A program made the position numbers and the translations under genes. Positions 1,974 through 57,800 of a stretch of DNA of 64,000 nt are shown here, piece after piece. Numbering within the stretch: the stretch's first letter is position 1; the number at the start of each line of letters is the position of its first letter. Source of the DNA: Patiria pectinifera (lineage: Eukaryota > Echinodermata > Asteroidea > Valvatida > Asterinidae); the NCBI GenBank assembly GCA_029964075.1, contig CM057149.1:16630197-16694196 (forward strand). The letters are read 5' to 3'. The notes under the pieces are model-generated. The model was not told the origin of the DNA and did no database searches. It saw only the letters and a list, made by a program, of their open reading frames with translations.

Positions 1974-3238
1974 AATTCTACACCCGCAACGCTAACGTAA
2001 CTTCGTAAACAGTGGTGCACATGCATGTCGACTCGACTAACATTGTGACAAGTTAATTTTACTCTTCTGCTAGTAATCCTCCTGTTAAATTTTCCAAGAT
2101 TTTACTCACCAAGAAGCACACAAACACTAGCTTTTGGCACGGGTACTGAGGAGAAGTGGGGATGTCCACGTCTACATTTGTTTGCACTTCTCAGCTGCGC
2201 GTACATGTACGTACTCAACTTAACTAGGCCTGTACGTGTACGTACGTGTACCGTACAGGTCTATGCATTACGCATGATGCAAGTCTCAGCTCAACGACCT
2301 TTGACCTTTGTATTTAAAGAACATACGGTACCACGTGGTTTCTGCAACTTTTGCAAGTAAAACTCGTCTACAAACAAACTATTTCATCTTTGGGAAGATT
2401 CCCATATCTGGCCAACACAAATTTTTCCCTTCAGTGACCTATCACTTTATCAGACATCAGGACGTGATAATATGCCCTTAAAAGTCAAATTTAGCCGGGA
2501 AAATGAAGTAGGCCTACACTTGGAAATGTTCCGACCAGATAGGGTTGTGCAGTGTGCACAGGTTAACAAGTGATGGCCAGATAGGGAATCTTTTGACTTT
2601 GTTCTTAAATTTAATACCTTCTTTGTGATAATTTGACATAATAATTTGTGGAGTTGGATTTTTGGGCATTGACTCGAGTCATAACAACTCTGGATTTGGG
2701 CCATTTGGGCAAAAAGCTGAAATGTTTGTTTTCTCCCTAGATCCTGACTGGAGTGAGCTGAAATGTCTAGGGCCCAGGGATTCATTTCTCAGGCCTCATT
2801 TCTGTACAGATCTTTTTTTTTATGGATGCACGTGACACCCCCTCCCAACCCCCGCTCCCAGCCCCCCCCCCAGAGAAAAAAATAAACTCTTAAAATAGGA
2901 CTACAAATGATGAAACTGACAAATTTGGTTTCAGTGACGCCAGCAGGTCATTGTTAACAGAGGAACTGGCCAGAGATTATGGGATATATTTCTCCCATAA
3001 TCTGGATATTTTGGTTACCATAGAAATCTATTGTAAAAAAAAAAACATTTGATGGTCCTTGTCCGTACTCTTTTTTTTTATTTTTCATTTTTTCCCCTTG
3101 TATTTCGCTATAAAAAATGCATAGATTAATATTTTGATTCTACTTACTATTAAGGCAGCTTATTAAAAGCTGGCGGTCATTTTGAACCAAATTTGGCGGC
3201 CACTTTTAATTTAATACTTCAAATTAGGTTTTTTCCCT
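1974..3238. other. Intergenic stretch without a recognised gene
   Basis: Contains a GTAC-rich alternating tract (about 2200-2260) and C/T- and A-rich low-complexity runs (2810-2880). Nothing else recognised. Confidence 0.5.
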
Positions 3239-33800: not shown

Positions 33801-36800
33801 GTTCGCACGTTGCTAATAGTGCGCAGGCGTAAGGTACGTCACAAATCAACCACTAGTGGACTAATGGTCCTTGCCCGAACTTGGCCCAGTTTGTATAACA
33901 CTTGTGCGCAAACAACTTGGAACCAGCGTGTGTGTCATACACTCGCTTTTTTTAAGATGGCGCCCGAAAGATTGCCATGTGAGTCTGAAGTTTTCATCAT
34001 GTTCGTATTATTCGCGAAATGTTTTTCGAACTTTATGCGACATCATCAAGGCAACAAGAAAGGGACAATGTTATAGTGACAAGTATTGAAAGGAGTTTGA
34101 GTTTATCACAACATACAGAAAAGATAAAACAGAGTGCGTTTTGCAAGGTATGTCAGCGGGATTTTTCTGTCGCGTACGGTGGCCCTAATGTAAATGTGTG
34201 TAAAAACATAACGAACTCGAAACTCAACATCGATAGCATGCATCTCAGAAAAATATGCGCACATGTTTTTTTTTTTATAATTTATTTGACTTCGACAAAC
34301 AAATACAGACAGTAAAAAAACATTGTATTTAAGGCCCCCAAAAAAAAAATAGTCGGTCTCTGGTCAGACCGAAGTTCCGGAATTGATGCGGCGACGCGGG
34401 TTTTTTTGGGTTGTTTTGGTGGCTTTTTTTTTTTTTTTCAAGCTTGTATTGTACAGACAAGGTGGGTACTATTTTGCTTTTTTGTGTCCTCATTATACAT
34501 TGGTGTCCTCCATAATTTGCCTTGGTGCCCTTTATCATTTGCCTTGGTGCAATTTGGCCTTTCCTTGGTGCTCCTTGGTACAAAAATTTGAGGAGGCGTG
34601 GCAATAGAGGGCGCTGTTGTAGCTTCCGTGTTAATTTGAAGAAAAAAAAAAGGTTGACGCGCATGATTAAAATCGACGCGCGCGCTGACCAGAAACCGAG
34701 TGTTTTTGGGGGGGCCTAAACAAAAATTTGAAGGGCCTAAAAACAAAGAAGTTGCAGTTCCGATTGTTCACAAATGTCAACATGATTATTCTACCACATC
34801 TGCGCGTCAGTGCAGCAGTTTCATGTGTGTACAGTCACTGTGAGCTTTATAAATAGCTTGATGGTGAAAACTGCAACGTTCGCGAGCGTTATAAATGTGA
34901 CATCTGTTTTGTTTGTCCATGTAGCCAGGTTTTCACTTTGAAAATTCCCACAAATGACATTCAAAACCTTTCATTTTCATTGTCTGAGAAGTTACTAAGT
35001 AATTGTAAAGTTGGTTACGGGTACCCAATCCCATAATCTGGAACCGGTTTCTGACATCAGTGGTTGGTTACTCGGGTAACCGGTTCTGATACACAGCTCT
35101 ACTTCAGATTGTTAATTCAAATAATCCAATATTTAAATATTCAAATTTCCATGTTTTGGAATATCCTAGTATTTGATACAAGTGAAAATAGATAAAAGAA
35201 ACAATGACAATTGCAATATAATCTACACAACTTTGTAGTATTATAATTGTGCTGGCTTCTCTTATCAACTACCAACTGCAGCAAGCAATAATTTAACAGA
35301 GGTCACAGCTGAAGAGAAATACAATTGTGGTATCAAAAAATTGTTTACAAATTCATTGCTACGGTTTGCCAGTCACTAGAAGTGGTACAATCCGGTTTGC
35401 AAGATACAACATAATACAGGCCTGCATTTTTAATGCATGTGTTCGTTTTGTGACTAATGCTAGATTACTCACTGTGTGACTACATGTTCGCTGAAACGTA
35501 CACAACCATTTCTTCTTTTCTCACAATTATTATTATTATTATTAAACAAAACGAACCAGGTAGAGTGGGAAAAGTGCAAGCTCTATATAAGTTGCTTAAC
35601 TGAGCAACCCCCACACACCTGAAGCGTCGATGAAGAAAACAAAATCAGGAGACAATAAAAATTTAAAAAAAAACTGAGAAAACAAGAACACGTGTGATCG
35701 ACAAAAAACTGGACAATAAGAGCAACACTAGAAAAAAAATTAAGTGGACCTAAGGAACCTTAAGTGGACCGAAGGAACAAAACAAAAAGGAACTATTCTC
35801 CACAAAATTTGACGTCAGTACCTCAACGTTGGCTTTGCTGGACAGTTAATCTGTCGTTCTGAAAATCTCAAAACTATTGAATACATCTTTAACCGAAACT
35901 CCCTAGAAAGCCTTTTTAACCTTCCTGAACCTTTCAAAATCTTCCCAAAACCAGTGGCACACACTTTGCTTTTAAAAGCATTATTGGGTCATTTGCTTTC
36001 CTGCATTTTCTTGAATATTTCCAATGAGAACACCACTCAGCATCCAAAGAGAAATGTTTAAAACTAAAACCTGTTGAAGTTTCAGCTTATTGGATATTAC
36101 ACTTATTGAGAAACCACTGTAAAATCGTGCACAACCTTTTGATAACGAAACACAATTTCGTTTGTAGCACTCTCCAATTCCCAGAACCAGTCAATTGACT
36201 GATCGTTGGAAATCACCTACATTTCTTGATTTCTTCTAAATGACAGTAAGCCAGACGAAATAATTTCTCTGGGTGTTTAAGTTGACTTAGCATTAAACCA
36301 CTGAGAATATTTCTACTCCCCCTCCAACTCAGGCCACTCCCTAGCTAATGTCGGTTCCCATTTATACTTCTGGGTGGAGAGAGGCAAGTGGGGGTGAAGT
36401 CACTTGCCCAAGGACACAACATATGGCCAGCAGCTGGATTCGGTCCTTGGCCCTCCTATCACAAATCCTAACCACTAGGCCACACTCTCTCACTCAAACG
36501 CTCTACTCATGGTCATTGTGCACAGCTGTCGAGGTCTTTCCCAGCTAATGCGGGTACCCATTTATACTCCTTGGTAGAGAGAGGCAAGTGGGGGTGAGGT
36601 GGCTTGCCCAAAGACACAACATATGGCCAGCAGCTGGATTTTGAACCCCTGACCCTCCTATCACAAATCCTAACCACCAGGCCACACTCCCCCACACACA
36701 CACCCTCTACTCGTGGTCATTGTGCACAGCTGTCGAGGTCTTTCCACAAATCAGCTGCTTGAGACCCTTCCTGAATGAGCTGTACTTAATGGTGTAGATG

Positions 36801-39800
36801 ACAGGATTGATGCAAGAGTTGGTCGCAGCGAGAACAGTAGCTATGCTGTAGGGTAGGCCGGGTATGTGAGCAGCCAGCATGACGGTGTTCGGCAACCAGC
36901 AGATGAAATAGGCCAAGCAGACCAGGACGAGGGCTTTGATGACGTTACGACGAGCGCGGAGGAGCGAGTCCCCTTGGGTTTCGGGGATGTGCTCACCCGA
37001 AGATGACTCGGGCGATCTGGCCCCGTCGCTCCGGATGTGGGTCATCACGACCGTTCTGACGGACACCGGTTCGGTTTGCCTGGCGCCCCGCTTGAGCACG
37101 ACGGCCATGTGGATGTACGCGAAGAGCATGGTCCAGGCCGGGATGAAGAAAGTGACCACATTGCTGGCCTGGACGAGATTGTTTAGCCGGTGCCCTGTGG
37201 GCGTCGGTAAAGCTACCTTGCACTTATTGTCACGCTCAGAGAAGTCAATCAACGCGAAGATGCACAGCCCCATACTGATGCCGACGAGCCACGTCGCGGC
37301 GATCCCCACCGCTGGTACCCAGCGCCGCGCAAAGAGTGAACGGTACTTGAATGGATACACTATCGCTAGATACCGCTCCAGGGTTACCAGCACGAGACTC
37401 ATGGTGGAGGTGAAGAGAAACATCCACATGACGCTCTCTGATTCCCATAAGTAGCAATACAGCCAGCCCCAGGCCCCCTTCGGTAAAACCTCCAAAGTTG
37501 GGATGTTGAAAACGAGCATGAAAATCAACGATCCGAACAAGTCCGCGACAGCTTGATTAAACAAGCAAGCATTGGTCACTGTGTGCATGTGCGGAATGCG
37601 CCATATGACGACACACACCACGAAATTTCCCAGCAGGCCCAACGTGCCGATAACCGCACTGATAATGCCCAAAACGTCCGGCATTGCTCGCAGAAATGTT
37701 TCCGTGTCCGATGCAGAGAAACAAACTGCGGAAACCACACTACTGCAATTTTGCCAAAAACACAAATGACCGCAACGCGTAAATGTAAATAAATTTCTGG
37801 CCAATTTGGTTTTATCACCGATAGCCGCAATCCATTATCTACCAACGAGCAATCCTCCTCCGTTAATTTGATTAAATAATACTTGGCCGTAGTTTACGGG
37901 TCATCCGCTGAAACAAGCAACTATGATACGTGTACAATCTCCACAACCTTCAAACTAAATCTCCTCCATTGTACACACAATCAAAGTCCACAAACTGCAT
38001 GTGTTCGTGTAATCACTTTCAAGTATTAACTTTCCCACGCAGGCCCCGCGTCCGATATCTCCAGGGTACATGCACACTTTGTTTATTTGCGCTTTCACTT
38101 TGCGCAGCGCGACAACAGTTGATGTGAGAAGTATGTGGCCGGCCCCGGGACGGAGCGGAGTCACTTCCGCGCATTTAGGGTTCGGCGCATCGGGCCATTA
38201 AGTGAAAGTGATACTTGTTTGCTCTGTTGCGAGACGCTGTCACTTTGTGAGTGGCTTCGTAAATGTTGAAGTGGAAATTTCAGGAGCAAAACTGTAGTTG
38301 CTAAATTACATTGTACGGCATAGCATCAGTCAATGTGTATTTTTCATTAATTGAAATGTCATTTTATTAACCTTTGAAAAACCAACCCATTTGATTGCAA
38401 AAACCCAGAACTGAATGATGTATGCTTGCAGGTCCCGTTGGAAGCATAGCTTGTTAATGATAAACCCTGTAAAATAAGTGGCCAAGTTTTGAGCGCAGTT
38501 GCTGGTTTTCGAACAAAGAACCGGTTCTTTTATGTGCTCTGTATTCTTACTATGCAAAAGTATGTCATTCTATTAATCCTACTCTATTATTAACAACATT
38601 CTTTACTCTGTTAATTAATATTCTTTTTGTTTTGCCCCTGAAACATACATGTAATTGACGGTCAATTTTGCATTTTTTTTTTGACAATTAGATTTGAGAT
38701 GAAGTTATCAGGTTACCTGTTCATAACAAATCCAAAAAATTGAATACATGCTGACTTTTTTTTCTTAATTCATGTTTCCTTTATTGTCATAAGGGAAAAG
38801 ATAAGATTGGTAGGTTTGCATAGTGAACACATGGTGAAGATAACAATAAGAAAGATTAAACTTATTGTAGAACCGTGTAACAAATTTCTTTTGTGAGTTT
38901 GTGAGGCTCTGAAAAGAAACAGGGAAACTTAACATTTCAGTCAGTGTATGCTCTGCCTGTCATCTGGAGACTATAGGGAAAAGATGTTTAGCAAACTAAA
39001 AAAATCCCCAAATCAAACTGTCCATTGCTGAAGCACTTTTAAGCAGACACTTAATTAATTATTTTAAAATAATTAATTATGTGTCTGCATAAACTGTTAA
39101 TTGTTCCATAAAACAACAACTACGGTAGGAACGAACAGCATGGGGAAAAATAACGTAATTTTGTGTCACCCAAATTAGTTATTTTGTCCTTTCAAAATAT
39201 TTCAAAGAAAATATATAATAATAGTAAAATATGATAAATGTGTTGTCAGCTTTAGCTTTATCTTAATTGCATTTACTAATCAAAAGGTTGTTCATGTGTT
39301 ACTTTTCCATGGCAGATTATCACAAATCAAAGAAAGGCATTTTTACCAATTTATCACAACTTGAAAAAGAATGTAATCTTTGCTAGTGTGCCAAAATTCA
39401 TGTTATTGTGTGCATTCCTACACTATGTTAAGGGAAAGTTTTTTTATTGTTAGGCAAAATTGGACAAAGTTATTGGGACTTTCTGCTGTCCCCACAGCGT
39501 TTTTGGTCCCCACAAATACCTCGCACAGACGAGTGTATGTCCTCACAACTACGGATGTGAATGGAGCAAGTTGTGTATTGCAACAGATTATTCTTGTTTT
39601 TGTTTTTTCTCTCAATTATGAATTGACTGAACCTATCACATATAAAACATATTTTCTCTTTGACTTTTCTCTTTGATAAAACATTCTCCTCGGTGTAGAA
39701 TATGTAGAGAGTATTTCCCAAATGACGGAATTTCTTTTCGGAATTTTTTCCATGGGAAATATTACGGTAAAGCTTTTGGTAATTGAAGGTGCTATACAGG

Positions 39801-42800
39801 GTGGTGCAAAAAGAAAGAAACCCACTTTTGATTGCAATTTTCACCTACTTGTTGAGCATATTTCAAAAATTCAATTTAATGGTATTGAAATATTGATCTT
39901 TAAACATTCGTGACAAAAAAAACTAATTGCAAAAGCATGTTTTGTCTCTGAGATATGGCAGTTTAAAACTTCCAAGTGCCAAACCTGTTTGTCCACGGAC
40001 GGCTTTATTCCAACAGCTTGACTGAGCTCGGGAGCTTGATTTGAAGACAAAAAACACTACACTTGACTTACACGTGGACAACAGTGATTTTGGTGACTTG
40101 TATTCAAATTAGCGTCATAACACTATTCTTGCAATTTTTTTAAAGCATTTTTGTCAAAGATTTTTTCACCATGTATGGTTGAAGAGCTATACTTCACTAC
40201 ATCATAAAAAAAAAATCCAGTTCAAATAAGATAAGTAAGCAGGTTAAAATTCCTGTCAAAATTGGGTTTCCTTCTTTTTGCACCTCCCTGTGGGAGAAGA
40301 ATCAAAGTGTGCCAGACTAGTAGACGCACCAGGTTTAATGGCTGACATTAACTTAATTGCTCCTGACAAAATTGTATTGGCTTGTCTCCACCCTCAATTT
40401 TTTTGCTGTCACACTCCCTTTATATCATTCCTAATCCATCCCCATGGACCGATCCATTACGTCCAGCCCCTTTTGCCCAATCAAATGCCCGATTAAAGTC
40501 CAAAAATAAAAAAGTCTGACATGTTTGCATTTGTGCATGGGCGTGCTTCTGGAAAATGCAGTGTGGCATATTTGGAGAGCTGAGTATGTTGTTCATTACG
40601 TGGGCAGTTTGCAAAGCCTAATGGATCCGTGTTATTAATCTCAATCCATTCTTATCAATCCTCTACGGTCCAAATAAAGCTTGACATTTGCAATCTGATT
40701 TCAGCTGCTGCGGACCTCTTAATAACTACATGGTGTTCAACGACACGGACGGCTTGTACACGTACACTTTTGAAGCGGAGAAAAAGGTGAGAGGTCTCTG
40801 TCCTTTTGTGTGGGGAGTAGACACGGTGTCCAGCAAACTGAAGGTTTAGGTCTGTAGACATTTTTTTAAACAGAAACGGTTGAATACTGTTGATACTCTT
40901 CCACAGTTTTTGTCTTCTTTTTTTTACTCGGTTATACTAATTTTAAACCTGTATGTTTAATTTAAACTAAAAAGTATTTTTGTCAATTTAAGGCATATGC
41001 AACCTCTTGACAAAAATCTTCTATTAATTTATTGGTATTTTTTTATTATTGTTTTTTTTACAAGACAGACAAAATACAATTACATAAACATAAAACTACA
41101 ATGAAAAAACAAAACACCCCATAATTGCACACAAATTGCACATTAAAGGACCCAATAACATCTAAACCTCTACCATGATCAAGAGAAAATAAACTATGCA
41201 TGTTTATCCCCCACATGCTACCAAAGACTCGAGAGACCGGAATCAGAGGCTGCGCACTCGCCATTCTTTTGTTACCTGTGGCCTGAGCAGCCGTTTATTC
41301 AATATGCCAAACTTCTTGTTCCCGCCCGAAGCTGATAGCGCAGAACTGCAATATTTAGCAATATTATCACAGATTGTTCAGCAATATTATCACAGATTGT
41401 TCCCGCCCGAAGCTGATAGCGCAGAACTGCAATTATACTTAGCAATATTATCAAAGATTGTTTGGCAATATTATCACAGAATGTTCCCGCCCAAAGCTGA
41501 TAGCGCAGAACTGCAATTAGCAATAGTATCACAGATTGTTCTCGCCCGAAGCTGATCAGAGCGCAGAACTGCAATATGTACAATATATACAAAAGAATGG
41601 CGAGTGCGCAGCTCTAGGCACCTCGTGTGAACTTTGGAACACATTTGATTAATTTGTATTTTTGGGTCAAAAACTGACTTTTTCGATGATGCCGGCTATG
41701 GAAAACGTTGAAGTTTTGGGGGCATTTTGTAAAAAACCTAAAATGTTTCTTTTCTCACTGGATACTGAATGTAATGAGTTGAACTCTTCAGGGAATTCAA
41801 TTCTGGCCTCTAGGCACCTCGTGTGAACTTTTGAGGAAATTTGGTGAAGTCAGATTTTTGGGTCAAAAACTGACTTTTTCGATGATGCCGGCTATGGAAA
41901 ACGTTGAAGTTTTGGGGGCATTTGGTAAAAAATTAAAAAGTTTTGTTTTCTCACTGGATTCTGAATGTAATGAGTTGAACTCTTCAGGGAATTCAATTCT
42001 GGCCTCTAGGCACCTCGTGTGAACTTTTGAGGAAATTTGGTGAAGTCAGATTTTGGGTCAAAAACTGACTTTTTCGATGATGCCGGCTATGGAAAACGTT
42101 GAAGTTTTGGGGTCATTTTGTAAAAAATCTAAAATGTTTCTTTTCTCACTGGATTCTGAATGTAATGAGTTGAACTCTTCAGGGAATTCAATTCTGGCCT
42201 CTAGGCACCTCGTGTGAACTTTTGAGGAAATTTGGTGAAGTCAGATTTTTTTGGTAAAAAACTGACTTTTTCGATGATGCCGGCTATGGAAAACGTTGAA
42301 GTTTTGGGGTCATTTTGTAAAAAATCTAAAATGTTTCTTTTCTCACTGGATTCTGAATGTAATGAGTTGAACTCTTCAGGGAATTCAATTCTGGCCTCTA
42401 GGCACCTCGTGTGAACTTTTGAGGAAATTTGGTGAAGTCAGATTTTGGGTAAAAAAATGAATTTTTAGATGATGACGGATATGGAAAACGTTGAAGTTTT
42501 GGGGCATTTTGTAAAAATCTAAAATGTTTCTTTTCTCACTGGATTCTGAATGTAATGAGTTGAACTCTTCAGGGAATTCAATTCTGGCCTCTAGGCACCT
42601 CGTGTGAACTTTTGAGGAAATTTGGTGAAGTCAGATTTTTGGGTCAAAAACTGACTTTTTCGATGATGCCGGCTATGGAAAACGTTGAAGTTTTGGGGCA
42701 TTTTGTAAAAAATCTGAAATGTTTCTTTTCTCACTGGATTCTGAATGTAATGAGTTGAACTCTTCAGGGAATTCAATTCTGGCCTCTAGGCACCTCGTGT

Positions 42801-45800
42801 GAACTTTTGAGGAAATTTGGTGAAGTCAGATTTTTGGGTCAAAAACTGACTTTTTCGATGATGCCGGCTATGGAAAACGTTGAAGTTTTGGGGCATTTTG
42901 AAAAAAATCTAAAATGTTTCTTTTCTCACTGGATTCTGAATGTAATGAGTTGAACTCTTCAGGGAATTCAATTCTGGCCTCTAGGCACGTCGTGTGAACT
43001 TTTGAGGAAATTTGGTGAAGTCAGATTTTTGGGTCAAAACTGACTTTTTCGATGATGCCGGCTATGGAAAACGTTGAAGTTTTGGGGGCATTTTGTAAAC
43101 AATCTAAAATGTTTCTTTTCTCACTGGATTCTGAATGTAATGAGTTGAACTCTTCAGGGAATTCAATTCTGGCCTCTAGGCACCTCGTGTGAACTTTTGA
43201 GGAAATTTGGTGAAGTCAGATTTTTGGGTCAAAAACTGACTTTTTCGATGATGCCGGCTATGGAAAACGTTGAAGTTTTGGGGTCATTTTGTAAAGAATC
43301 TAAAATGTTTCTTTTCTCACTGGATTCTGAATGTAATGAGTTGAACTCTTCAGGGAATTCAATTCTGGCCTCTAGGCACCTCGTGTGAACTTTTGAGGAA
43401 ATTTGGTGAAGTCAGATTTTTGGGTCAAAACTGACTTTTTCGATGATGCCGGCTATGGAAAACGTTGAAGTTTTGGGGCATTTTGTAAAAATCTAAAATG
43501 TTTCTTTTCTCACTGGATTCTGAATGTAATGAGTTGAACTCTTCAGGGAATTCAATTCTGGCCTCTAGGCACCTCGTGTGAACTTTTGAGGAAATTTGGT
43601 GAAGTCAGATTTTTGGGTCAAAACTGACTTTTTCGATGATGCCGGCTATGGAAAACGTTGAAGTTTTGGGGTCATTTTGTAAAAAATCTAAAATGTTTCT
43701 TTTCTCACTGGATTCTGAATGTAATGAGTTGAACTCTTCAGGGAATTCAATTCTGGCCTCTAGGCACCTCGTGTGAACTTTTGAGGAAATTTGGTGAAGT
43801 CAGATTTTTGGGTCAAAAACTGACTTTTTCGATGATGCCGGCTATGGAAAACGTTGAAGTTTTGGGGTCATTTTGTAAAAAATCTAAAATGTTTCTTTTC
43901 TCACTGGATTCTGAATGTAATGAGTTGAACTCTTCACAGAATTCAATTCTGGCCTCCAGGCACCTCGTGTGAACTTTTGAGGAAATTTGGTGAAGTCAGA
44001 TTTTTGGGTCAAAAACTGACTTTTTCGATGATGCCGGCTATGGAAAACGTTGAAGTTTTGGGGGCATTTTGTAAAAAATCTAAAATGTTTCTTTTCTCAC
44101 TGGATTCTGAATGTAATGAGTTGAACTCTTCAGGGAATTCAATTCTGGCCTCTAGGCACCTCGTGTGAACTTTTGAGGAAATTTGGTGAAGTCAGATTTT
44201 TGGGTCAAAAACTGGCTTTTTCGATGATGCCGGCTATGGAAAACGTTGACGTTTTGGGGTCATTTTGTAAAAACTCTAAAATGTTTCTTTTCTCACTGGA
44301 TTCTGAATGTAATGAGTTGAACTCTTCAGGGAATTCAATTCTGGCCTCTAGGCACCTCGTGTGAACTTTTGAGGAAATTTGGTGAAGTCAGATTTTTGGG
44401 TCAAAAACTGACTTTTTCGATGATGCCGGCTATGGAAAACGTTGAAGTTTTGGGGCATTTTGTAAAAAATCTAAAATGTTTCTTTTCTCACTGGATTCTG
44501 AATGTAATGAGTTGAACTCTTCAGGGAATTCAATTCTGGCCTCTAGGCACCTCGTGTGAACTTTTGAGGAAATTTGGTGAAGTCAGATTTTTGGGTCAAA
44601 AACTGACTTTTTCGATGATGCCGGCTATGGAAAACGTTGAAGTTTTGGGGTCATTTTGAAAAAAAATCTAAAATGTTTCTTTTCTCACTGGATTCTGAAT
44701 GTAATGAGTTGAACTCTTCAGGGAATTCAATTCTGGCCTCTAGGCACCTCGTGTGAACTTTTGAGGAAATTTGGTGAAGTCAGATTTTTGGGTCAAAAAC
44801 TGACTTTTTCGATGATGCCGGCTATGGAAAACGTTGAAGTTTTGGGGTCATTTTGTAAAAATTCTAAAATGTTTCTTTTCTCACTGGATTCTGAATGTAA
44901 TGAGTTGAACTCTTCATATATGTCGATTCTTGCCTCTACGCACCTCGTGTGAACTTTTGAGGAAATTTGGTGAAGTCAGATTTTGGGTCAAAACTGACTT
45001 TTTCGATGATGCCGGCTATGGAAAACGTTGAAGTTTTGGGGTGATTTTGTAAAAATTCTAAAATGTTTCTTTTCTCACTGGATTCTGAATGTAATGAGTT
45101 GAACTCTTCAGGGAATTCAATTCTGGCCTCTAGGCACCTCGTGTGAACTTTTGAGGAAATTTGGTGAAGTCAGATTTTTGGGTCAAAAACTGACTTTTTC
45201 GATGATGCCGGCTATGGAAAACGTTGAAGTTTTGGGGGCATTTTGTAAAAAATCTAAAATGTTTCTTTTCTCACTGGATTCTGAATGTAATGAGTTGAAC
45301 TCTTCAGGGAATTCAATTCTGGCCTCTAGGCACCTCGTGTGAACTTTTGAGGAAATTTGGTGAAGTCAGATTTTTGGGTCAAAAACTGACTTTTTCGATG
45401 ATGCCGGCTATGGAAAACGTTGAAGTTTTGGGGTCATTTTGTAAAAAATCTAAAATGTTTCTTTTCTCACTGGATTCTGAATGTAATGAGTTGAACTCTT
45501 CAGGGAATTCAATTCTGGCCTCTAGGCACCTCGTGTGAACTTTTGAGGAAATTTGGTGAAGTCAGATTTTTGGGTCAAAACTGACTTTTTCGATGATGCC
45601 GGCTATGGAAAACGTTGAAGTTTTGGGGTCATTTTGTAAAAAATCTAAAATGTTTCTTTTCTCACTGGATTCTGAATGTAATGAGTTGAACTCTTCAGGG
45701 AATTCAATTCTGGCCTCTAGGCACCTCGTGTGAACTTTTGAGGAAATTTGGTGAAGTCAGATTTTTGGGTCAAAAACTGACTTTTTCGATGATGCCGGCT

Positions 45801-48800
45801 ATGGAAAACGTTGAAGTTTTTGGGGCATTTTGAAAAAAATGTAAAATGTTTCTTTTCTCACTGGATTCTGAATGTAATGAGTTGAACTCTTCAGGGAATT
45901 CAATTCTGGCCTCTAGGCACCTCGTGTGAACTTTTGAGGAAATTTGGTGAAGTCAGATTTTTGGGTCAAAAACTGACTTTTTCGATGATGCCGGCTATGG
46001 AAAACGTTGAAGTTTTGGGGTCATTTTTTAAAAAATCTAAAATGTTTCTTTTCTCACTGGATTCTGAATGTAATGAGTTGAACTCTTCAGGGAATTCAAT
46101 TCTGGCCTCTAGGCACCTCGTGTGAACTTTTGAGGAAATTTGGTGAAGTCAGATTTTTGGGTCAAAAACTGACTTTTTCGATGATGCCGGCTATGGAAAA
46201 CGTTGAAGTTTTGGGGTCATTTTGTAAAAATCTAAAATGTTTCTTTTCTCACTGGATTCTGAATGTAATGAGTTGAACTCTTCAGGGAATTCAATTCTGG
46301 CCTCTAGGCACCTCGTGTGAACTTTTGAGGAAATTTGGTGAAGTCAGATTTTTGGGTCAAAAACTGACTTTTTCGATGATGCCGGCTATGGAAAACGTTG
46401 AAGTTTTGGGGTCATTTTGTAAAAAATCTAAAATGTTTCTTTTCTCACTGGATTCTGAATGTAATGAGTTGAACTCTTCAGGGAATTCAATTCTGGCCTC
46501 TAGGCACCTCGTGTGAACTTTTGAGGAAATTTGGTGAAGTCAGATTTTTGGGTCAAAAACTGACTTTTTCGATGATGCCGGCTATGGAAAACGTTGAAGT
46601 TTTGGGGTCATTTTGTAAAAAATCTAAAATGTTTCTTTTCTCACTGGATACTGAATGTTATGAGTTGAACTCTTCAGGGAATTCAATTCTGGCCTCTAGG
46701 CACCTCTTGTGAATTTTTTAGGAAATTTGGTGAAGTCAGATTTTTGGGTCAAAAACTGACTTTTTCTATGATGCCGGCTATGGAAAACGTTGAAGTTTTG
46801 GGGTCATTTTGTAAAAAATCTAAAATGTTTCTTTTCTCACTGGATTCTGAATGTAATGAGTTGAACTCTTCAGGGAATTCAATTCTGGCCTCTAGGCACC
46901 TCGTGTGAACTTTTGAGGAAATTTGGTGAAGTCAGATTTTGGGTCAAAATCTGACTTTTTCGATTATGCCGGCTATGGAAAACGTTGAAGTTTTGGGGTC
47001 ATTTTGTAAAAAATCTAAAATGTTTCTTTTCTCACTGGATTCTGAATGTAATGAGTTGAACTCTTCAGGGAATTCAATTCTGGCCTCTAGGCACCTCGTG
47101 TGAACTTTTGAGGAAATTTGGTGAAGTCAGATTTTTGGGTCAAAAACTGACTTTTTCGATGATGCCGGCTATGGAAAACGTTGAAGTTTTGGGGCATTTT
47201 GTAAAAATTCTAAAATGTTTCTTTTCTCACTGGATTCTGAATGTAATGAGTTGAACTCTTCAGGGAATTCAATTCTGGCCTCTAGGCACCTCGTGTGAAC
47301 TTTTGAGGAAATTTGGTGAAGTCAGATTTTTGGGTCAAAACTGACTTTTTCGATGATGCCGGCTATGGAAAACGTTGAAGTTTTGGGGCATTTTGTAAAA
47401 ATTCTAAAATGTTTCTTTTCTCACTGGATTCTGAATGTAATGAGTTGAACTCTTCAGGGAATTCAATTCTGGCCTCTAGGCACCTCGTGTGAACTTTTGA
47501 GGAAATTTGGTGAAGTCAGATTTTTGGGTCAAAAACTGACTTTTTCGATGATGCCGGCTATGGAAAACGTTGAAGTTTTGGGGTCATTTTGTAAAAAATC
47601 TAAAATGTTTCTTTTCTCACTGGATTCTGAATGTAATGAGTTGAACTCTTCAGGGAATTCAATTCTGGCCTCTAGGCACCTCGTGTGAACTTTTGAGGAA
47701 ATTTGGTGAAGTCAGATTTTTGGGTCAAAAACTGACTTTTTCGATGATGCCGGCTATGGAAAACGTTGAAGTTTTGGGGCATTTTGTAAAAAATGTAAAA
47801 TGTTTCTTTTCTCACTGAATACTGAAAGTAATGAGTTGAACTCTTCAGGGAATTCAATTCTGGCCTCTAGGCACCTCGTGTGAACTTTTGAGGAAATTTG
47901 GTGAAGTCAGATTTTTGGGTCAAAAACTGACTTTTTCGATGATGCCGGCTATGGAAAACGTTGAAGTTTTGGGGCATTTTGTAAAAAATCTAAAATGTTT
48001 CTTTTCTCACTGGATTCTGAATGTAATGAGTTGAACTCTTCAGGGAATTCAATTCTGGCCTCTAGGCACCTCGTGTGAACTTTTGAGGAAATTTGGTGAA
48101 GTCAGATTTTTGGGTCAAAACCTGACTTTTTCGATGATGCCGGCTATGGAAAACGTTGAAGTTTTGGGGGCATTTTGTAAAAATCTAAAATGTTTCTTTT
48201 CTCACTGGATTCTGAATGTAATGAGTTGAACTCTTCAGGGAATTCAATTCTGGCCTCTAGGCACCTCGTGTGAACTTTTGAGGAAATTTGGTGAAGTCAG
48301 ATTTTTGGGTCAAAAACTGACTTTTTCGATGATGCCGGCTATGGAAAACGTTGAAGTTTTGGGGTCATTTTGTAAAAGATCTAAAAAGTTTCTTTTCTCA
48401 CTGGATTCTGAATGTAATGAGTTGAACTCTTCAGGGAATTCAATTCTGGCCTCTAGGCACCTCGTGTGAACTTTTGAGGAAATTTGGTGAAGTCAGATTT
48501 TTGGGTCAAAAACTGACTTTTTCGATGATGCCGGCTATGGAAAACGTTGAAGTTTTGGGGTCATTTTGTAAAAATTCTAAAATGTTTCTTTTCTCACTGG
48601 ATTCTGAATGTAATGAGTTGAACTCTTCAGGGAATACAATTCTGGCCTCTAGGCACCTCGTGTGAACTTTTGAGGAAATTTGGTGAAGTCAGATTTTTGG
48701 GTAAAAACTGACTTTTTTGATGATGCCGGCTATGGAAAACGGTGAAGTGTTGGGGTTATGTTGTAAAAAATCTAAAATGTTTCTTTTCTCACTGGATTCT

Positions 48801-51800
48801 GAATGTAATGAGTTGAACTCTTCAGGGAATTCAATTCTGGCCTCTAGGCACCTCGTGTGAACTTTTGAGGAAATTTGGTGAAGTCAGATTTTTGGGTCAA
48901 AAACTGACTTTTTCGATGATGCCGGCTATGGAAAACGTTGAAGTTTTGGGGTCATTTTGTAAAAAATCTAAAATGTTTCTTTTCTCACTGGATTCTGAAT
49001 GTAATGAGTTGAACTCTTCAGGGAATTCAATTCTGGCCTCTAGGCACCTCGTGTGAACTTTTGAGGAAATTTGGTGAAGTCAGATTTTTGGGTCAAAAAC
49101 TGACTTTTTCGATGATGCCGGCTATGGAAAACGTTGAAGTTTTGGGGGCATTTTGCAAAAAAATCTAAAATGTTTCTTTTCTCACTGGATTCTGAATGTA
49201 ATGAGTTGAACTCTTCAGGGAATTCAATTCTGGCCTCTAGGCACCTCGTGTGAACTTTTGAGGAAATTTGGTGAAGTCAGATTTTTGGGTCAAAACTGAC
49301 TTTTTCGATGATGCCGGCTATGGAAAACGTTGAAGTTTTGGGGTCATTTTGTAAAAAATCTAAAATGTTTCTTTTCTCACTGGATTCTGAATGTAATGAG
49401 TTGAACTCTTCAGGGAATTCAATTCTGGCCTCTAGGCACCTCGTGTGAACTTTTGAGGAAATTTGGTGAAGTCAGATTTTTGGGTCAAAACTGACTTTTT
49501 CGATGATGCCGGCTATGGAAAACGTTGAAGTTTTGGGGTCATTTTGTAATATCTAAAATGTTTCTTTTCTCACTGGATTCTGAATGTAATGAGTTGAACT
49601 CTTCAGGGAATTCAATTCTGGCCTCTAGGCACCTCGTGTGAACTTTTGAGGAAATTTGGTGAAGTCAGATTTTTGGGTCAAAAACTGACTTTTTCGATGA
49701 TGCCGGCTATGGAAAACGTTGAAGTTTTGGGGTCATTTTGTAAAAAATCTAAAATGTTTCTTTTCTCACTGGATTCTGAATGTAATGAGTTGAACTCTTC
49801 AGGGAATTCAATTCTGGCCTCTAGGCACCTCGTGTGAACTTTTGAGGAAATTTGGTGAAGTCAGATTTTTGGGTCAAAAACTGACTTTTTCGATGATGCC
49901 GGCTATGGAAAACGTTGAAGTTTTGGGGTCATTTTGTAAAAATCTAAAATGTTTCTTTTCTCACTGGATTCTGAATGTAATGAGTTGAACTCTTCAGGGA
50001 ATTCAATTCTGGCCTCTAGGCACCTCGTGTGAACTTTTGAGGAAATTTGGTGAAGTCAGATTTTTGGGTCAAAAACTGACTTTTTCGATGATGCCGGCTA
50101 TGGAAAACGTTGAAGTTTTGGGTCATTTTGTAAAAAATCTAAAATGTTTCTTTTCTCACTGGATACTGAATGTAATGAGTTGAACTCTTCAGGGAATTCA
50201 ATTCTGGCCTCTAGGCACCTCGTGTGAACTTTTGAGGAAATTTGGTGAAGTCAGATTTTTGGGTCAAAAACTGACTTTTTCGATGATGCCGGCTATGGAA
50301 AACGTTGAAGTTTTGGGGTCATTTTGTAAAAAATCTAAAATGTTTCTTTTCTCACTGGATTCTGAATGTAATGAGTTGAACTCTTCAGGGAATTCAATTC
50401 TGGCCTCTAGGCACCTCGTGTGAACTTTTGAGGAAATTTGGTGAAGTCAGATTTTTGGGTCAAAAACTGACTTTTTCGATGATGCCGGCTATGGAAAACG
50501 TTGAAGTTTTGGGTCATTTTGTAAAAAATTTAAAATGTTTCTTTTCTCACTGGATACTGAATGTAATGAGTTGAACTCTTCAGGGAATTCAATTCTGGCC
50601 TCTAGGCACCTCGTGTGAACTTTTGAGGAAATTTGGTGAAGTCAGATTTTTTTGGGAAAAAACTGACTTTTTCGATGATGCCGGCTATGGAAAACGTTGA
50701 AGTTTTGGGGTCATTTTGTAAAAAATCTAAAATGTTTCTTTTCTCACTGGATTCTGAATGTAATGAGTTGAACTCTTCAGGGAATTCAATTCTGGCCTCT
50801 AGGCACCTCGTGTGAACTTTTGAGGAAATTTGGTGAAGTCAGATTTTTGGGTCAAAAACTGACTTTTTCGATGATGCCGGCTATGGAAAACGTTGAAGTT
50901 TTGGGGCATTTTGTAAAAATTCTAAAATGTTTCTTTTCTCACTGGATTCTGAATGTAATGAGTTGAACTCTTCAGGGAATTCAATTCTGGCCTCTAGGCA
51001 CCTCGTGTGAACTTTTGAGGAAATTTGGTGAAGTCAGATTTTTGGGTCAAAAACTGACTTTTTCGATGATGCCGGCTATGGAAAACGTTGAAGTTTTGGG
51101 GTCATTTTGTAAAAATCTAAAATGTTTCTTTTCTCACTGGATTCTGAATGTAATGAGTTGAACTCTTCAGGGAATTCAATTCTGGCCTCTAGGCACCTCG
51201 TGTGAACTTTTGAGGAAATTTGGTGAAGTCAGATTTTTGGGTCAAAAACTGACTTTTTCGATGATGCCGGCTATGGAAAACGTTGAAGTTTTGGGGTCAT
51301 TTTGTAAAAAATCTAAAATGTTTCTTTTCTCACTGGATTCTGAATGTAATGAGTTGAACTCTTCAGGGAATTCAATTCTGGCCTCTAGGCACCTCTTGTG
51401 AATTTTTTAGGAAATTTGGTGAAGTCAGATTTTTGGGGTCGCCACTGCCTTTTTAAATGAAGCCTGCTATGGAAAACGTTGAAGTTTTGGGGTCATTTTG
51501 TAAAAATCTAAAATGTTTCTTTTGTCACTGGATTCTGAATGTAATGAGTTGAACTCTTCAGGGAATTCAATTCTGGCCTCTAGGCACCTCGTGTGAACTT
51601 TTGAGGAAATTTGGTGAAGTCAGATTTTGGGTCAAAAACTGACTTTTTCGATGATGCCGGCTATGGAAAACGTTGAAGTTTTGGGGGCATTTGGCAAAAA
51701 GCCAAAAAGTTTGGTTTTCTCACCGGATACTGAATGTAATGAGTTGAACTCTTCAGGGAATTCAATTCTGGCCTCTAGGCACCTCGTGTGAACTTGTGAG

Positions 51801-54800
51801 GAAATTTGGTGAAGTCAGATTTTTGGGTCAAAACTGACTTTTTCGATGATGCCGGCTATGGAAAACGTTGAAGTTTTGGGGTCATTTTGTAAAAAATCTA
51901 AAATGTTTCTTTTCTCACTGGATTCTGAATGTAATGAGTTGAACTCTTCAGGGAATTCAATTCTGGCCTCTAGGCACCTCGTGTGAACTTTTGAGGAAAT
52001 TTGGTGAAGTCAGATTTTTGGGTCAAAAACTGACTTTTTCGATGATGCCGGCTATGGAAAACGTTGAAGTTTTGGGGTCATTTTGTAAAAATCTAAAATG
52101 TTTCTTTTCTCACTGGATTCTGAATGTAATGAGTTGAACTCTTCAGGGAATTCAATTCTGGCCTCTAGGCACCTCGTGTGAACTTTTGAGGAAATTTGGT
52201 GAAGTCAGATTTTTGGGTCAAAAACTGACTTTTTCGATGATGCCGGCTATGGAAAACGTTGAAGTTTTGGGGTCATTTTGTAAAAAATCTAAAATGTTTC
52301 TTTTCTCACTGGATTCTGAATGTAATGAGTTGAACTCTTCAGGGAATTCAATTCTGGCCTCTAGGCACCTCGTGTGAACTTTTGAGGAAATTTGGTGAAG
52401 TCAGATTTTTGGGTCAAAAACTGACTTTTTCGATGATGCCGGCTATGGAAAACGTTGAAGTTTTGAGGCATTTTGTAAAAAAATGTAAAATTTCTCTTTT
52501 CTCACTGAATACTGAAAGTAATGAGTTGAACTCTTCAGGGAATTCAATTCTGGCCTCTAGGCACCTCGTGTGAACTTTTGAGGAAATTTGGTGAAGTCAG
52601 ATTTTTGGGTCAAAACTTACTTTTTCGAAGAGTGCGGCTATGGAAAACGTTGGAGTTTTGGGGTCATTTTGTAAAAATCTAAAATGTTTCTTTTCTCACT
52701 GGATTCTGAATGTAATGAGTTGAACTCTTCATGGAATTCAATTCTGGCCTCTAGGCACCTCGTGTGAACTTAGTAGGAAATTTGGTGAAGCCAGATTTTT
52801 GGGTCCAAAACTGACTTTTTCGATGATGCCGGCTATGGAAAACGTTGAAGTTTTGGGGTCATTTTGTAAAAAATCTAAAATGTTTCTTTTCTCACTGGAT
52901 TCTGAATGTAATGAGTTGAACTCTTCAGGGAATTCAATTCTGGCCTCTAGGCACCTCGTGTGAACTTTTGAGGAAATTTGGTGAAGTTAGATTGTTGGGT
53001 CAAAAACTGACTTTTCGATGATGCCGGCTATGGAAAACGTTGAAGTTTTGGGGTCATTTTGTGAAAAATCTAAAATGTTTCTTTTCTCACTGGATTCTGA
53101 ATGTAATGAGTTGAACTCTTCAGGGAATTCAATTCTGGCCTCTAGGCACCTCGTGTGAACTTTTGAGGAAATTTGGTGAAGTCAGATTTTTGGGTCAAAA
53201 ACTGACTTTTTCGATGATGCCGGCTATGGAAAACGTTGAAGTTTTGGGGCATTTTGTAAAAAATCTAAAATGTTTCTTTTCTCACTGGATTCTGAATGTA
53301 ATGAGTTGAACTCTTCAGGGAATTCAATTCTGGCCTCTAGGCACCTCGTGTGAACTTTTGAGGAAATTTGGTGAAGTCAGATTTTTGGGTCAAAAACTGA
53401 CTTTTTCGATGATGCCGGCTATGGAAAACGTTGAAGTTTTGGGGGCATTTTGTAAAAAAATCTGAAATGTTTCTTTTCTCACCGGATTCTGAATGTAGTG
53501 AGTTGAACTCTTCAGGGAATTCAATTCTGGCCTCTAGGCACCTCGTGTGAACTTTTGAGGAAATTTGGTGAAGTCAGATTTTTGGGTCAAAAACTGGCTT
53601 TTTCGATGATGCCGGCTATGGAAAACGTTGAAGTTTTGGGGTCATTTTGTAATATCTAAAATGTTTCTTTTCTCACTGGATTCTGAATGTAATGAGTTGA
53701 ACTCTTCAGGGAATTCAATTCTGGCCTCTAGGCACCTCGTGTGAACTTTTGAGGAAATTTGGTGAAGTCAGATTTTTGGGTCAAAAACTGACTTTTTCGA
53801 TGATGCCGGCTATGGAAAACGTTGAAGTTTTGGGGCATTTTGTAAAAAATCTAAAATGTTTCTTTTCTCACTGGATTCTGAATGTAATGAGTTGAACTCT
53901 TCAGGGAATTCAATTCTGGCCTCTAGGCACCTCGTGTGAACTTTTGAGGAAATTTGGTGAAGTCAGATTTTTGGGTCAAAAACTGACTTTTTCGATGATG
54001 CCGGCTATGGAAAACGTTGAAGTTTTGGGGTCATTTTGTAAAAAATCTAAAATGTTTCTTTTCTCACTGGATTCTGAATGTAATGAGTTGAACTCTTCAG
54101 GGAATTCAATTCTGGCCTCTAGGCACCTCGTGTGAACTTTTGAGGAAATTTGGTGAAGTCAGATTTTTGGGTCAAAAACTGACTTTTTCGATGATGCCGG
54201 CTATGGAAAACGTTGAAGTTTTGGGTCATTTTGTAAAATATTTAAAATGTTTCTTTTCTCACTGGATACTGAATGTAATGAGTTGAACTCTTCAGGGAAT
54301 TCAATTCTGGCCTCTAGGCACCTCGTGTGAACTTTTGAGGAAATTTGGTGAAGTCAGATTTTTTTGGTAAAAAACTGACTTTTTCGATGATGCCGGCTAT
54401 GGAAAACGTTGAAGTTTTGGGGTCATTTTGTAAAAAATCTAAAATGTTTCTTTTCTCACTGGATTCTGAATGTAATGAGTTGAACTCTTCAGGGAATTCA
54501 ATTCTGGCCTCTAGGCACCTCTTGTGAATTTTTTAGGAAATTTGGTGAAGTCAGATTTTTGGGTCAAAAACTGACTTTTTCAATGATGCCGGCTATGGAA
54601 AACGTTGAAGTTTTGGGGTCATTTTGTAAAAAATCTAAAATGTTTCTTTTCTCACTGGATTCTGAATGTAATGAGTTGAACTCTTCAGGGAATTCAATTC
54701 TGGCCTCTAGGCACCTCGTGTGAACTTTTGAGGAAATTTGGTGAAGTCAGATTTTTGGGTCAAAACTGACTTTTTCGATGATGCCGGCTATGGAAAACGT

Positions 54801-57800
54801 TGAAGTTTTGGGGTCATTTTGTTAAAAATCTAAAATGTTTCTTTTCTCACTGGATTCTGAATGTAATGAGTTGAACTCTTCAGGGAATTCAATTCTGGCC
54901 TCTAGGCACCTCGTGTGAACTTTTGAGGAAATTTGGTGAAGTCAGATTTTTGGGTCAAAAACTGACTTTTTCGATGATGCCGGCTATGGAAAGCATTGAA
55001 GTTTTGGGGGCATTGAGTAAAAAATCTGAAATGTTTCTTTTCTCACTGGATTCTGAATGTAATGAGTTGAACTGTTCACGGAATTCGATTTTGGCCTCTA
55101 GGCACCTCGTGTGAACTTTTGAGCAAATTTGATAAATTTGATGATGCCGGCTATGGAAAACATTGAAGCTTGGGGTCATTTAGTAGAAAATCTAAAAATT
55201 TTCTTTTCTCACTGGATACTGAATGTAATGAGTTGAACTCTTCAGGCCTATTTGCGGTCTTGGAATGCAATTCCCGCCAAACTTTAACTCAGTCTGTGAT
55301 ATTGCCGATTCTAAGAAAGGCGACAACCCCCTCAAAAACCACAGAGGGAAAAAAGGGGGGAAATTCCTGGGTCCGCTAATATATTGCAACCGAGTACTGC
55401 GAGTTCATGATCACTGCGTCAAACACTCTAGGATCGGCAAATTATCACGCAAACATATCATGCAATACGAACACATCCATTTTTACCATGGCAATGTTTA
55501 TGCGGAATATGTGCAATTAGGTGGCTACGAACAGGGAGGGGGAGGGATTTTTTCCAGTAAGACGAAACTTTTTCGCCAAACCTAACCGCACGGTTGCTCA
55601 AGCAAAAGTGACCGTGTGCTCAAACTTACAGTTACAGTTCAATTACAGTGAACTAGTTCATGCACTTAAATCATTGTGACCGCAAGGAGAGTGACCTGGA
55701 ATGGCTAACCTTCAAACCAGCCCTGTCAACGGTCCAGCGGTGATAAATTATTTGAAGCTGCAATTCCATTTGCCTCAAATCGAATATAGGCTAAATGAAA
55801 GACGACAACCAAAAATCACAAGAACACAAGGAGCAGCCTTGCATGATAACAAAAAAAGCAAACTAACTTACTATCTTGTTGGTCTTCTAGTGCTACTTAA
55901 CCACAAAAAAAACACCAAAAGATCAGACAAACACATCAAACCTACAAATACAAAACCTCTCACGAAAACACAAACGGAAAACAAACAGACAGTCAACCAG
56001 ACAGACAAACAGCCACACACGGTGACAAACAGACAAGCAAACAAACAGACACACAAATTGGCAAGACAACTGCATAGTTAGGGTTGTTTCACACAAAAAC
56101 AGATCTGCCTATGCTGCATTTTTAACAGGGGTGTGAAATCTCAGCTTTAAAGCTGACTTCAGCTTTTTTCTGTTTGGGATTTCAGCTTTTTTCCCTCACT
56201 TGCTGTGTACAAAAGTATAGGAGATTTCCAAAGTTCACAGCATTTTTACACCTTTTTCAGCTGTTTTTATCAGTGGTCACACACACCCCTGATGTAAGTT
56301 GTTTTTCTCATGAGTCTTGGTGCCACTCTCATTTCTGCTATAGGAAGACTGTATAGCGTGTAGTCAGGTGCCTCAGGTTCTAACTCTGCCTGAAGATGCC
56401 ACCCTTCAGAACTTGATTGACCACCTCACGGAGAGCGCTAGCTTGTGAGTATTTTACCAAAAACAATACAGAAGTTTACAACATTGTTTTAACATCATCC
56501 TCGCTTGTAAGAACTTTACGCCTTTTCAATTAACTAGCTGAATGTAGCGCTTTGCGTGGCATCCCGCTAGCTGGTTGACCTTTATTTGCAGGTTGACCCC
56601 CAATGGGGGTGGTAAACCTAGGTGAAGTAATTTTGCCAAATTTCTCATCATCAACGTTATGTTTAGCGTAATAGCGATACGTTTGAGAGGGGTTTTTAAT
56701 GTTTTCATAGAGATAATGTAATATTTAACCATTGAAAGTCTGAAAGAAACAAATTTGCCAACAAAGCAAAAAAGTGTCTTTGGAAGATAGTGAAATCGGG
56801 GCATATATATACCACTGTATACAATAACCGTTGTTTTTTGTGGCTTTTTTTTTTGGTTGGCTTAGACAAATGAAGGCACCGGGCATCACCACCATCGTGA
56901 ACGGCAAGAACAAGACGTTATACATGCAGAATCCAGAAGCCATACGCGTCCGGACTAAAGAAAATCTGCCCAAGAAACTCACAGGTCAGTTTGTAATCAA
57001 TTACCTCATCCGCTCTGCAAAACTCTTATGGATTTTTGCTTTAAACTAACATTTAATGTGGTTGTATATGAAAGGGTGGTTTATTAGTTTTCCCATCAAT
57101 AACCTTTCTTCAGTGTTCCCAGAATTTTATGAAAACAAACTGCCCAGAGTTTCCCTTGATATTTTCATGCAAAAATTTCCGGAATTCCACAAGAAATATT
57201 TTTAACTTGAACAAGGTTGCTGGGAAGTCAAGAGGTATATGTAGCACAGCCAGTTGTTATTGTCTGGAGAGGTGTGTAATACTCACACTGCATAAACACT
57301 AAAAAGCCACCATAGTCAGTCAGTCAATGGACACAACATGGACACATGATACAAGACGCACATATACCAAACTGGCAACAAACCATTCCCTTCCGGGTGG
57401 TCACTGTCAAATTCCCTAAGTTTGCTGGGAAGTCAAGAGGTGTGTAGCGCAGCCAATTGTTATTGTCTGGAGAGGTGTGTAATATTCACACTGCATAAAC
57501 ACTAAAAAGCCATCATAGCCAGTCAGTCATTGGACACAACGTGGACACATGGCGCAAGATGCACACACGCCAAACTGGCAAAAACCATTCCCTTCTGGGT
57601 CACTGTCAAATCCCCTGAGTTCTCCTTGATTTTGTTTTTTCCCCCAAATTCCCTTAGTTTCCCTGACTGGAAAAATGGAAACTATTCTCAAGGTTTCCCT
57701 TATTTCCAGAGTTGCTTGGAACCCTGTAAGATGCAACCACAATGACATTGGTCAAGTCCATCAATTTAATGTACTATCCCATCATTTTAGGATTATCTTT

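Follow-up and report, generated by a model that had tools for sequence, protein, structure and literature searches.

A 195-bp satellite array nested in a mobile-element copy within a UBA3 intron of the starfish Patiria pectinifera

Satellites inside introns and satellites inside mobile elements are both kinds of arrangement that are already known (PMC6508621, PMC5844308, PMC7492417), and three described systems come closest to the locus that we describe. This is an array of a 195/196-bp satellite in an intron of UBA3 in Patiria pectinifera, contained in a stretch of 64,000 nucleotides (hereafter the window, to which positions refer unless a chromosome is named). As in the Drosophila Y genes kl-3 and kl-5, where intronic satellite arrays are transcribed through (PMC6508621), the UBA3 array would be read with its gene, but the arrays of kl-3 and kl-5 are megabases of simple repeats in spermatocyte genes (PMC6508621), whereas the starfish unit is 195 bp long and its arrays measure 13.6 kb in UBA3 and span 47.6 kb in NUP205. 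The likeness to TCAST of Tribolium lies in satellite repeats that are grouped in regions and enriched in introns; unlike the long homogenised arrays of the starfish, TCAST occurs there mainly as single repeats with few multimers (PMC5844308). Finally, as in the Helentron Cg_HINE of the oyster Crassostrea gigas, a satellite-like array lies within a dispersed mobile element, and in that species 7,151 arrays in 13 clusters belong to elements, the longest array having 29.3 monomers (PMC7492417).

The UBA3 intron and its array

UBA3 and NUP205 are housekeeping, essential genes. A query of exon pieces from the window led to the NEDD8-activating enzyme E1 catalytic subunit in the PDB (E 3e-34), and the nearest relative among 5.8 billion proteins was Patiria miniata UBA3 (98%). 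Exons from 20117 to 58549 align with the latter protein (P0001) in 13 tblastn rows, nine of which are 93-100% identical, while among the remaining four two reach far into intron (61% and 43%) and two (88% and 93%) overrun the exon by a few residues. The intron that bears the array has canonical borders, placed by exon alignments to P. miniata UBA3 and human UBA3; 87.6% of its length is satellite, and it would be intron 12 given a further, separate first coding exon upstream.

40705..40786 (+), UBA3 exon preceding the array, 28/28 residues as in P. miniata UBA3 319-346
40787..56343 (+), UBA3 intron with the array, 15,557 bp, borders AAG/GTGAGA and CTATAG/GAAGAC
41612..55246 (+), satellite array, 70 units of 195-196 bp, from Tandem Repeats Finder (TRF), unit-start search and unit alignment
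56344..56444 (+), UBA3 exon following the array, 33/34 residues as in P. miniata UBA3 347-380

The array is 13,635 bp long in total and consists of head-to-tail units that are about 97% alike. TRF reported it as a single array from 41612 to 55131 with a period of 195, 69.2 copies, 97% matches and a score of 25,471, and the unit-start search found 70 starts on the plus strand of the window and none on the minus strand. Spacing between starts ranges from 193 to 198 bp (195 in 29/69 and 196 in 21/69), and the final unit, with an internal deletion of about 30 bp, ends at 55246. The 68 inner units are on average 96.9% identical in pairwise comparison, and the figure stays at 96.8-97.5% over lags of 1-35 units, a range in which no clear higher-order period was seen; rare variants in common show mild excesses at lag 19 (13 vs 5.7 expected) and at lag 50 (7 vs 2.0 expected, six of the seven from one unit pair). 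With 2.5 substitutions per unit, 22 of the 68 inner units without any relative to the consensus, and 70 singleton against 41 shared variants, the variant pattern is star-like. The sequence-only reading that preceded this work had placed a homogeneous array of this unit, in one orientation, between two intact, in-frame UBA3 exons, and the unit counts, exon alignments and intron borders agree with it on all of these points.

The unit is non-coding. No open reading frame lying wholly within the array exceeds 82 aa, frames of 104 and 117 aa merely touching its ends, and an Rfam scan of the window at gathering thresholds returned three tRNAs, all outside the array, with no match in the array and no hammerhead ribozyme motif in the unit.

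Nesting in a dispersed mobile element

The array is not set in plain intron sequence; it is nested in a disrupted copy of a dispersed mobile element unrelated to the satellite, and three pieces of that copy adjoin it.

41204..41575 (+), left piece of the element, its 5' end and its 75-90-bp minisatellite (here 2.8 copies of an 84-bp unit), from genome search
41576..41611 (-), inverted piece of the 5' end of the element, adjoining the array start and forming with 41249-41272 a perfect inverted repeat of 24 nt
55244..55787 (+), right piece of the element, beginning at the array end, from genome search, 91.6% over 549 bp to the copy L075

The left piece has 150 matches in the genome (40/70 candidates scored); its identity is 89.9% to L075 (327 bp) and 82.8% to a second copy, L076 (366 bp). 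The right piece has 39 other matches (40/103 candidates scored). Fifteen of these extend over more than 400 bp, each starting at query base 45, that is at window position 55244, the array end, and the other 24 span only the last 126-157 bases. Stretches 41225-41541 and 55244 onward belong to one dispersed element family. In 11 of the 15 other long copies only 465-549 bp separate the left and right pieces, which leaves no space for an array, and neither L075 nor L076, both of which were fetched, holds any satellite. Since both flanks come from one element whose pieces lie close together elsewhere, the array either splits the central part of an element copy or stands in its place. Its junctions overlap by about 1 and 3 bp as read by eye, and terminal inverted repeats directly common to the left and right flanks score at shuffle level (36/200 as high).

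We consider it fairly probable, judging from the sequence, that the UBA3 array arose by local capture and local growth, an account in which we include passive tolerance by the host gene and pericentromeric clusters of the family. A few satellite units would have been captured, by end-joining or template-switch repair, at a break in an element copy inside the pre-existing UBA3 intron, and would then have grown to 70 by unequal exchange or gene conversion, processes that may also keep the array homogeneous, while the intron would be transcribed through and spliced out whole. Because the array lies inside a broken element copy, a break in that copy is the probable site of capture, with multiplication probably following on the spot, and the inverted element fragment together with the overlaps of about 1 and 3 bp fits template-switch break repair followed by expansion. 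The UBA3 locus thus offers a readable entry point of a satellite, with the interrupted element copy and its junctions preserved.

A satellite brought into the UBA3 intron by transposition, as the payload of a Helentron-like mobile element, would leave an array inside an element copy as well, and both outer termini of the UBA3 copy do look present in comparison with L076. The element also carries its own minisatellite, and oyster Cg_HINE elements carry satellite-like repeats (PMC7492417). However, in a Helentron/HINE element with central repeats the same array would be expected in most copies, and 11 of the 15 other long copies here have no room for one. Edges of other arrays bear on the same point: among 15 upstream and 6 downstream gap-free edges, no common flank sequence was found except for a pair of arrays on C14 and for NUP205 with itself, and the upstream edges lie at scattered unit phases, both of which speak against a travelling payload. 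Downstream edges do bunch, at unit phases 102-138 in 5/6 (C3b, C1, NUP205, C10 and a C2 two-unit copy), in or beside the A-rich portion of the unit (P 0.03), which favours the payload reading. Taken together, we regard arrival by transposition as unlikely.

Elsewhere the element occurs in tandem: two copies with a period of 1,964 bp, 99.9% identical over 1,407 bp, lie at C4:7793800-7797400 (L076), and similar pairs are present on C6, C7, C10, C14, C19 and C21.

A genome-wide satellite family

The genome searched has 613.5 Mb and 22 large contigs, and the window is its C21:16,630,197-16,694,196. A core 37-mer of the unit, with up to 3 mismatches allowed, gave 4,831 matches (2,384 forward and 2,447 reverse), and reversed-pattern controls gave 0. 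This k-mer search for the unit elsewhere had been suggested by the sequence-only reading, which treated the array as a lone euchromatic case; the position in the intron stands, but with this many core matches, and dozens of groups clustered within chromosomes, the array is not alone. Positions were sampled from 100 listed core matches and from four rarer-variant patterns (14, 77, 12 and 24 matches), and units occur on at least 13 of the 22 chromosomes among the matches listed. Several arrays lie inside genes, and an array at C3:16.28 Mb has 98 unit starts in 19.2 kb. On C19, satellite units on opposite strands, at 17741743 (+) and 17755483 (-), are no more than about 14 kb apart.

The 195/196-bp unit is that of a genome-wide satellite family of P. 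pectinifera, with long head-to-tail arrays, many arrays at high copy number and concerted evolution within arrays, and the family itself is new. Literature searches for a starfish or Patiria satellite gave no such paper among the matches listed, and the word 'satellite' has 0 occurrences in the main text of the P. pectinifera genome paper (PMC10511450). The genic arrays of the family are unusually large, and several arrays of this one satellite lie in or beside genes in a species with a chromosome-scale genome. One diverged relic of the unit stands apart, 39 kb upstream of the UBA3 array.

2640..2800 (+), diverged single relic of the 195-bp unit, 76% over 68 bp, E 3e-9

Clustering was assessed on 67 positions hand-chosen from the 227 listed matches, which at 30-kb grouping fell into 38 groups. 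Removal of an 81-bp fragment on C7 and of three groups formed by two-unit copies in a duplicated segment of C2 left 34 groups, which lie on 12 chromosomes where 16.7 would be expected. Group pairs on the same chromosome are on average 0.059 of the chromosome length apart, compared with 0.335 in simulation (0/2,000 simulations as low), and the mean distance of groups from the nearest chromosome end is 0.377 vs 0.25 at random (p 0.0009). The clusters, set well back from the ends, are probably pericentromeric.

A comparison of 323 units from seven arrays gave a within-array identity of 0.966 for UBA3 and of 0.888-0.956 for the other six. UBA3 units are 0.886-0.932 identical to those of the six other arrays, the closest being an array 0.3 Mb away on C21 (0.932), and for 68 of 69 UBA3 units the most similar unit lies within the UBA3 array itself. 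Each sampled array is homogenised separately, with its own consensus, that is, by concerted evolution. The local homogenisation proposed from the high similarity of the copies is therefore upheld, with 96.6% within the UBA3 array vs 88.6-93.2% to the six others.

The private consensus of the UBA3 array also bears on whether an array from elsewhere could have been joined into UBA3 during assembly. The assembly was built from Nanopore reads of a genome with 5.16% heterozygosity and polished with Illumina reads (PMC10511450), and three of the other sampled array edges abut 500-N scaffold gaps (L059 at C3 17.30, L068 at C13 15.06 and L071 at C18 9.98 Mb), so that the satellite is a weak point of the assembly and the true lengths of these three arrays are not given by it. 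At UBA3, however, the read N50 of 21 kb (PMC10511450) puts a 13.6-kb array within read reach, the 64-kb window contains no N, real mobile-element sequence occupies the junctions, and further arrays lie beside exons with gap-free edges in NUP205 and in a gene with an EGF domain. An assembly artefact at UBA3 is unlikely, and we give it very little credence.

Arrays beside other genes, splicing and strand orientation

The satellite also lies in an intron of NUP205 on the minus strand (C2:10907947-10955577; L073, L033), with 47.6 kb between its edges, more than three times the length of the UBA3 array, a span whose interior was sampled only as pattern matches and which may include a scaffold gap. 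One flank gave an exon matching NUP205 residues 491-539 (E 1.6e-13) and a weaker upstream exon for residues 407-446 (E 0.05), and on the other flank tblastn with a stretch of NUP205 gave exons matching the following residues (E 4e-10 and 2e-19). The two edges share a direct repeat of 73 bp (86%) and also have an inverted pair, pointing to an entry like that at UBA3 but into another repeat. On C10, an array of 884 bp sits 3' of an EGF-domain exon (PF00008, E 4.8e-7), and downstream of it there are frames on both strands (minus 14.1 > plus 9.9) for which Pfam found nothing. On C14, an array sits 3' of an exon matching PF10239 (DUF2465, FAM98-like, E 1.2e-10). The two C14 arrays (L060, L063), although 14 Mb apart, have this DUF2465-exon flank in common (90.0% over 712 bp), the second copy of which looks frameshifted by eye, and arrays thus also spread with duplicated segments. 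Finally, arrays on C3 (the one of 98 units), C19 and C1 begin a short way 3' of exon-like frames, whose scores are 21.6, 17.0 and 5.7, respectively, the C1 frame having 5.4 on the other strand and, by eye, no simple in-frame splice to the downstream frame.

All seven arrays with a recognised exon are sense to it, four of them by homology (UBA3, NUP205, EGF-domain, DUF2465) and three by reading frame only. The opposite case is that of the two-unit copies at C2 6.66-6.85 Mb, which are antisense to an exon recognised by eye (L025). In a two-sided sign test, 7/7 gives p 0.016, 7/8 gives p 0.07 and the four homology-based cases alone give 0.125. Further frames of comparable score were judged non-exonic by eye and left uncounted, namely opposite-strand frames at C3 14.94 Mb (13.7, about 4 kb from the array), C13 15.27 Mb (10.9) and C21 16.99 Mb (8.5), and same-strand frames at C20 (12.6) and C14 17.14 (11.8). 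The codon-usage exon finder, trained on the window, recovered 1-2 of 14 known UBA3 exons at thresholds of 7.5-9; thus failure to find an exon beside the remaining arrays does not show that none is there, and only arrays with recognised exons enter the orientation count. The sense-only orientation of intronic arrays is a hint, and a rule by which such arrays survive only in one strand orientation in this starfish is possible but doubtful. If it held genome-wide, transcription polarity would decide which satellites grow inside essential genes.

Such a rule might perhaps follow from stronger cryptic splice donors on the antisense strand of the unit (5.3, 5.1 and 4.1) than on the sense strand, where the best score is 3.7. 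These scores come from a splice-donor matrix, and one 196-bp unit is too little for significance; by the same scoring, eight of 13 UBA3 donors reach 7.0-10.7 and one reaches 6.8. Eight poly(A) hexamers were looked for in the unit and none was found on either strand. UBA3 probably tolerates the array because the unit has weak donors and no main poly(A) hexamers in the transcribed strand, and passive splicing of the whole intron is probably the simplest account.

A functional array would instead regulate UBA3 via heterochromatin, transcript timing or satellite RNA. The giant satellite introns of Drosophila kl-3 and kl-5 require a dedicated expression programme (PMC6508621), which favours this reading, as does the hint of sense-only orientation. 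Yet each sampled array has its own diverged consensus, and Rfam found nothing in the UBA3 array, so that we hold a regulatory role to be improbable.

Several points weigh against local capture with passive tolerance and pericentromeric clusters. The element might have carried the satellite into UBA3, the distance between left and right pieces having been obtained for 11 of the 15 other long copies. The bunched downstream edges are somewhat at odds with capture at random breaks, which does not predict them, and Illumina polishing of the repeat may have raised or lowered the apparent homogeneity. On the side of splicing, three of the 13 UBA3 donors (3.2, 1.6 and -2.4, the last probably a mis-placed border) score below the 3.7 of the unit, so that the donor contrast is not clean and the splice argument is weak, and each unit has one copy of a ninth hexamer, AAGAAA, in antisense. 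As for the clusters, 15 listed matches on small contigs were dropped from the sample, groups more than 30 kb apart counted as separate, and the pericentromeric assignment is drawn from position alone.

Given their range of sizes, the arrays of 0.9 kb and 13.6 kb and the 47.6-kb span form a natural series in which to follow how satellite DNA is handled by splicing, transcription and chromatin, and in which to ask whether strand orientation limits satellite growth.

Other features were seen in the window. A CENP-B box-like match in the unit (7/9 positions of the motif) was put at chance level by a rough estimate and not used. A second satellite, with a 323-bp unit in about 6 copies of about 92%, occupies 62055-64000 and continues past the window end; for one 61-base stretch of this satellite the genome has two exact matches, both at the C21 locus. 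Kinship of this satellite to the 195-bp unit was rejected, 110/200 shuffles scoring equally high. A minus-strand open reading frame at 12-14 kb was at first labelled MED1-like, a label withdrawn when Pfam gave no support. About 600 bp of CCCTACCCCAT-type minisatellite, at 26513-27118, stop some 120 bp ahead of a UBA3 exon (near 27238), and the UBA3 intron preceding the array-bearing one contains, in antisense, an intronless open reading frame of a rhodopsin-type receptor (36710-37834, minus strand; Pfam 7tm_1, E 2.7e-35).

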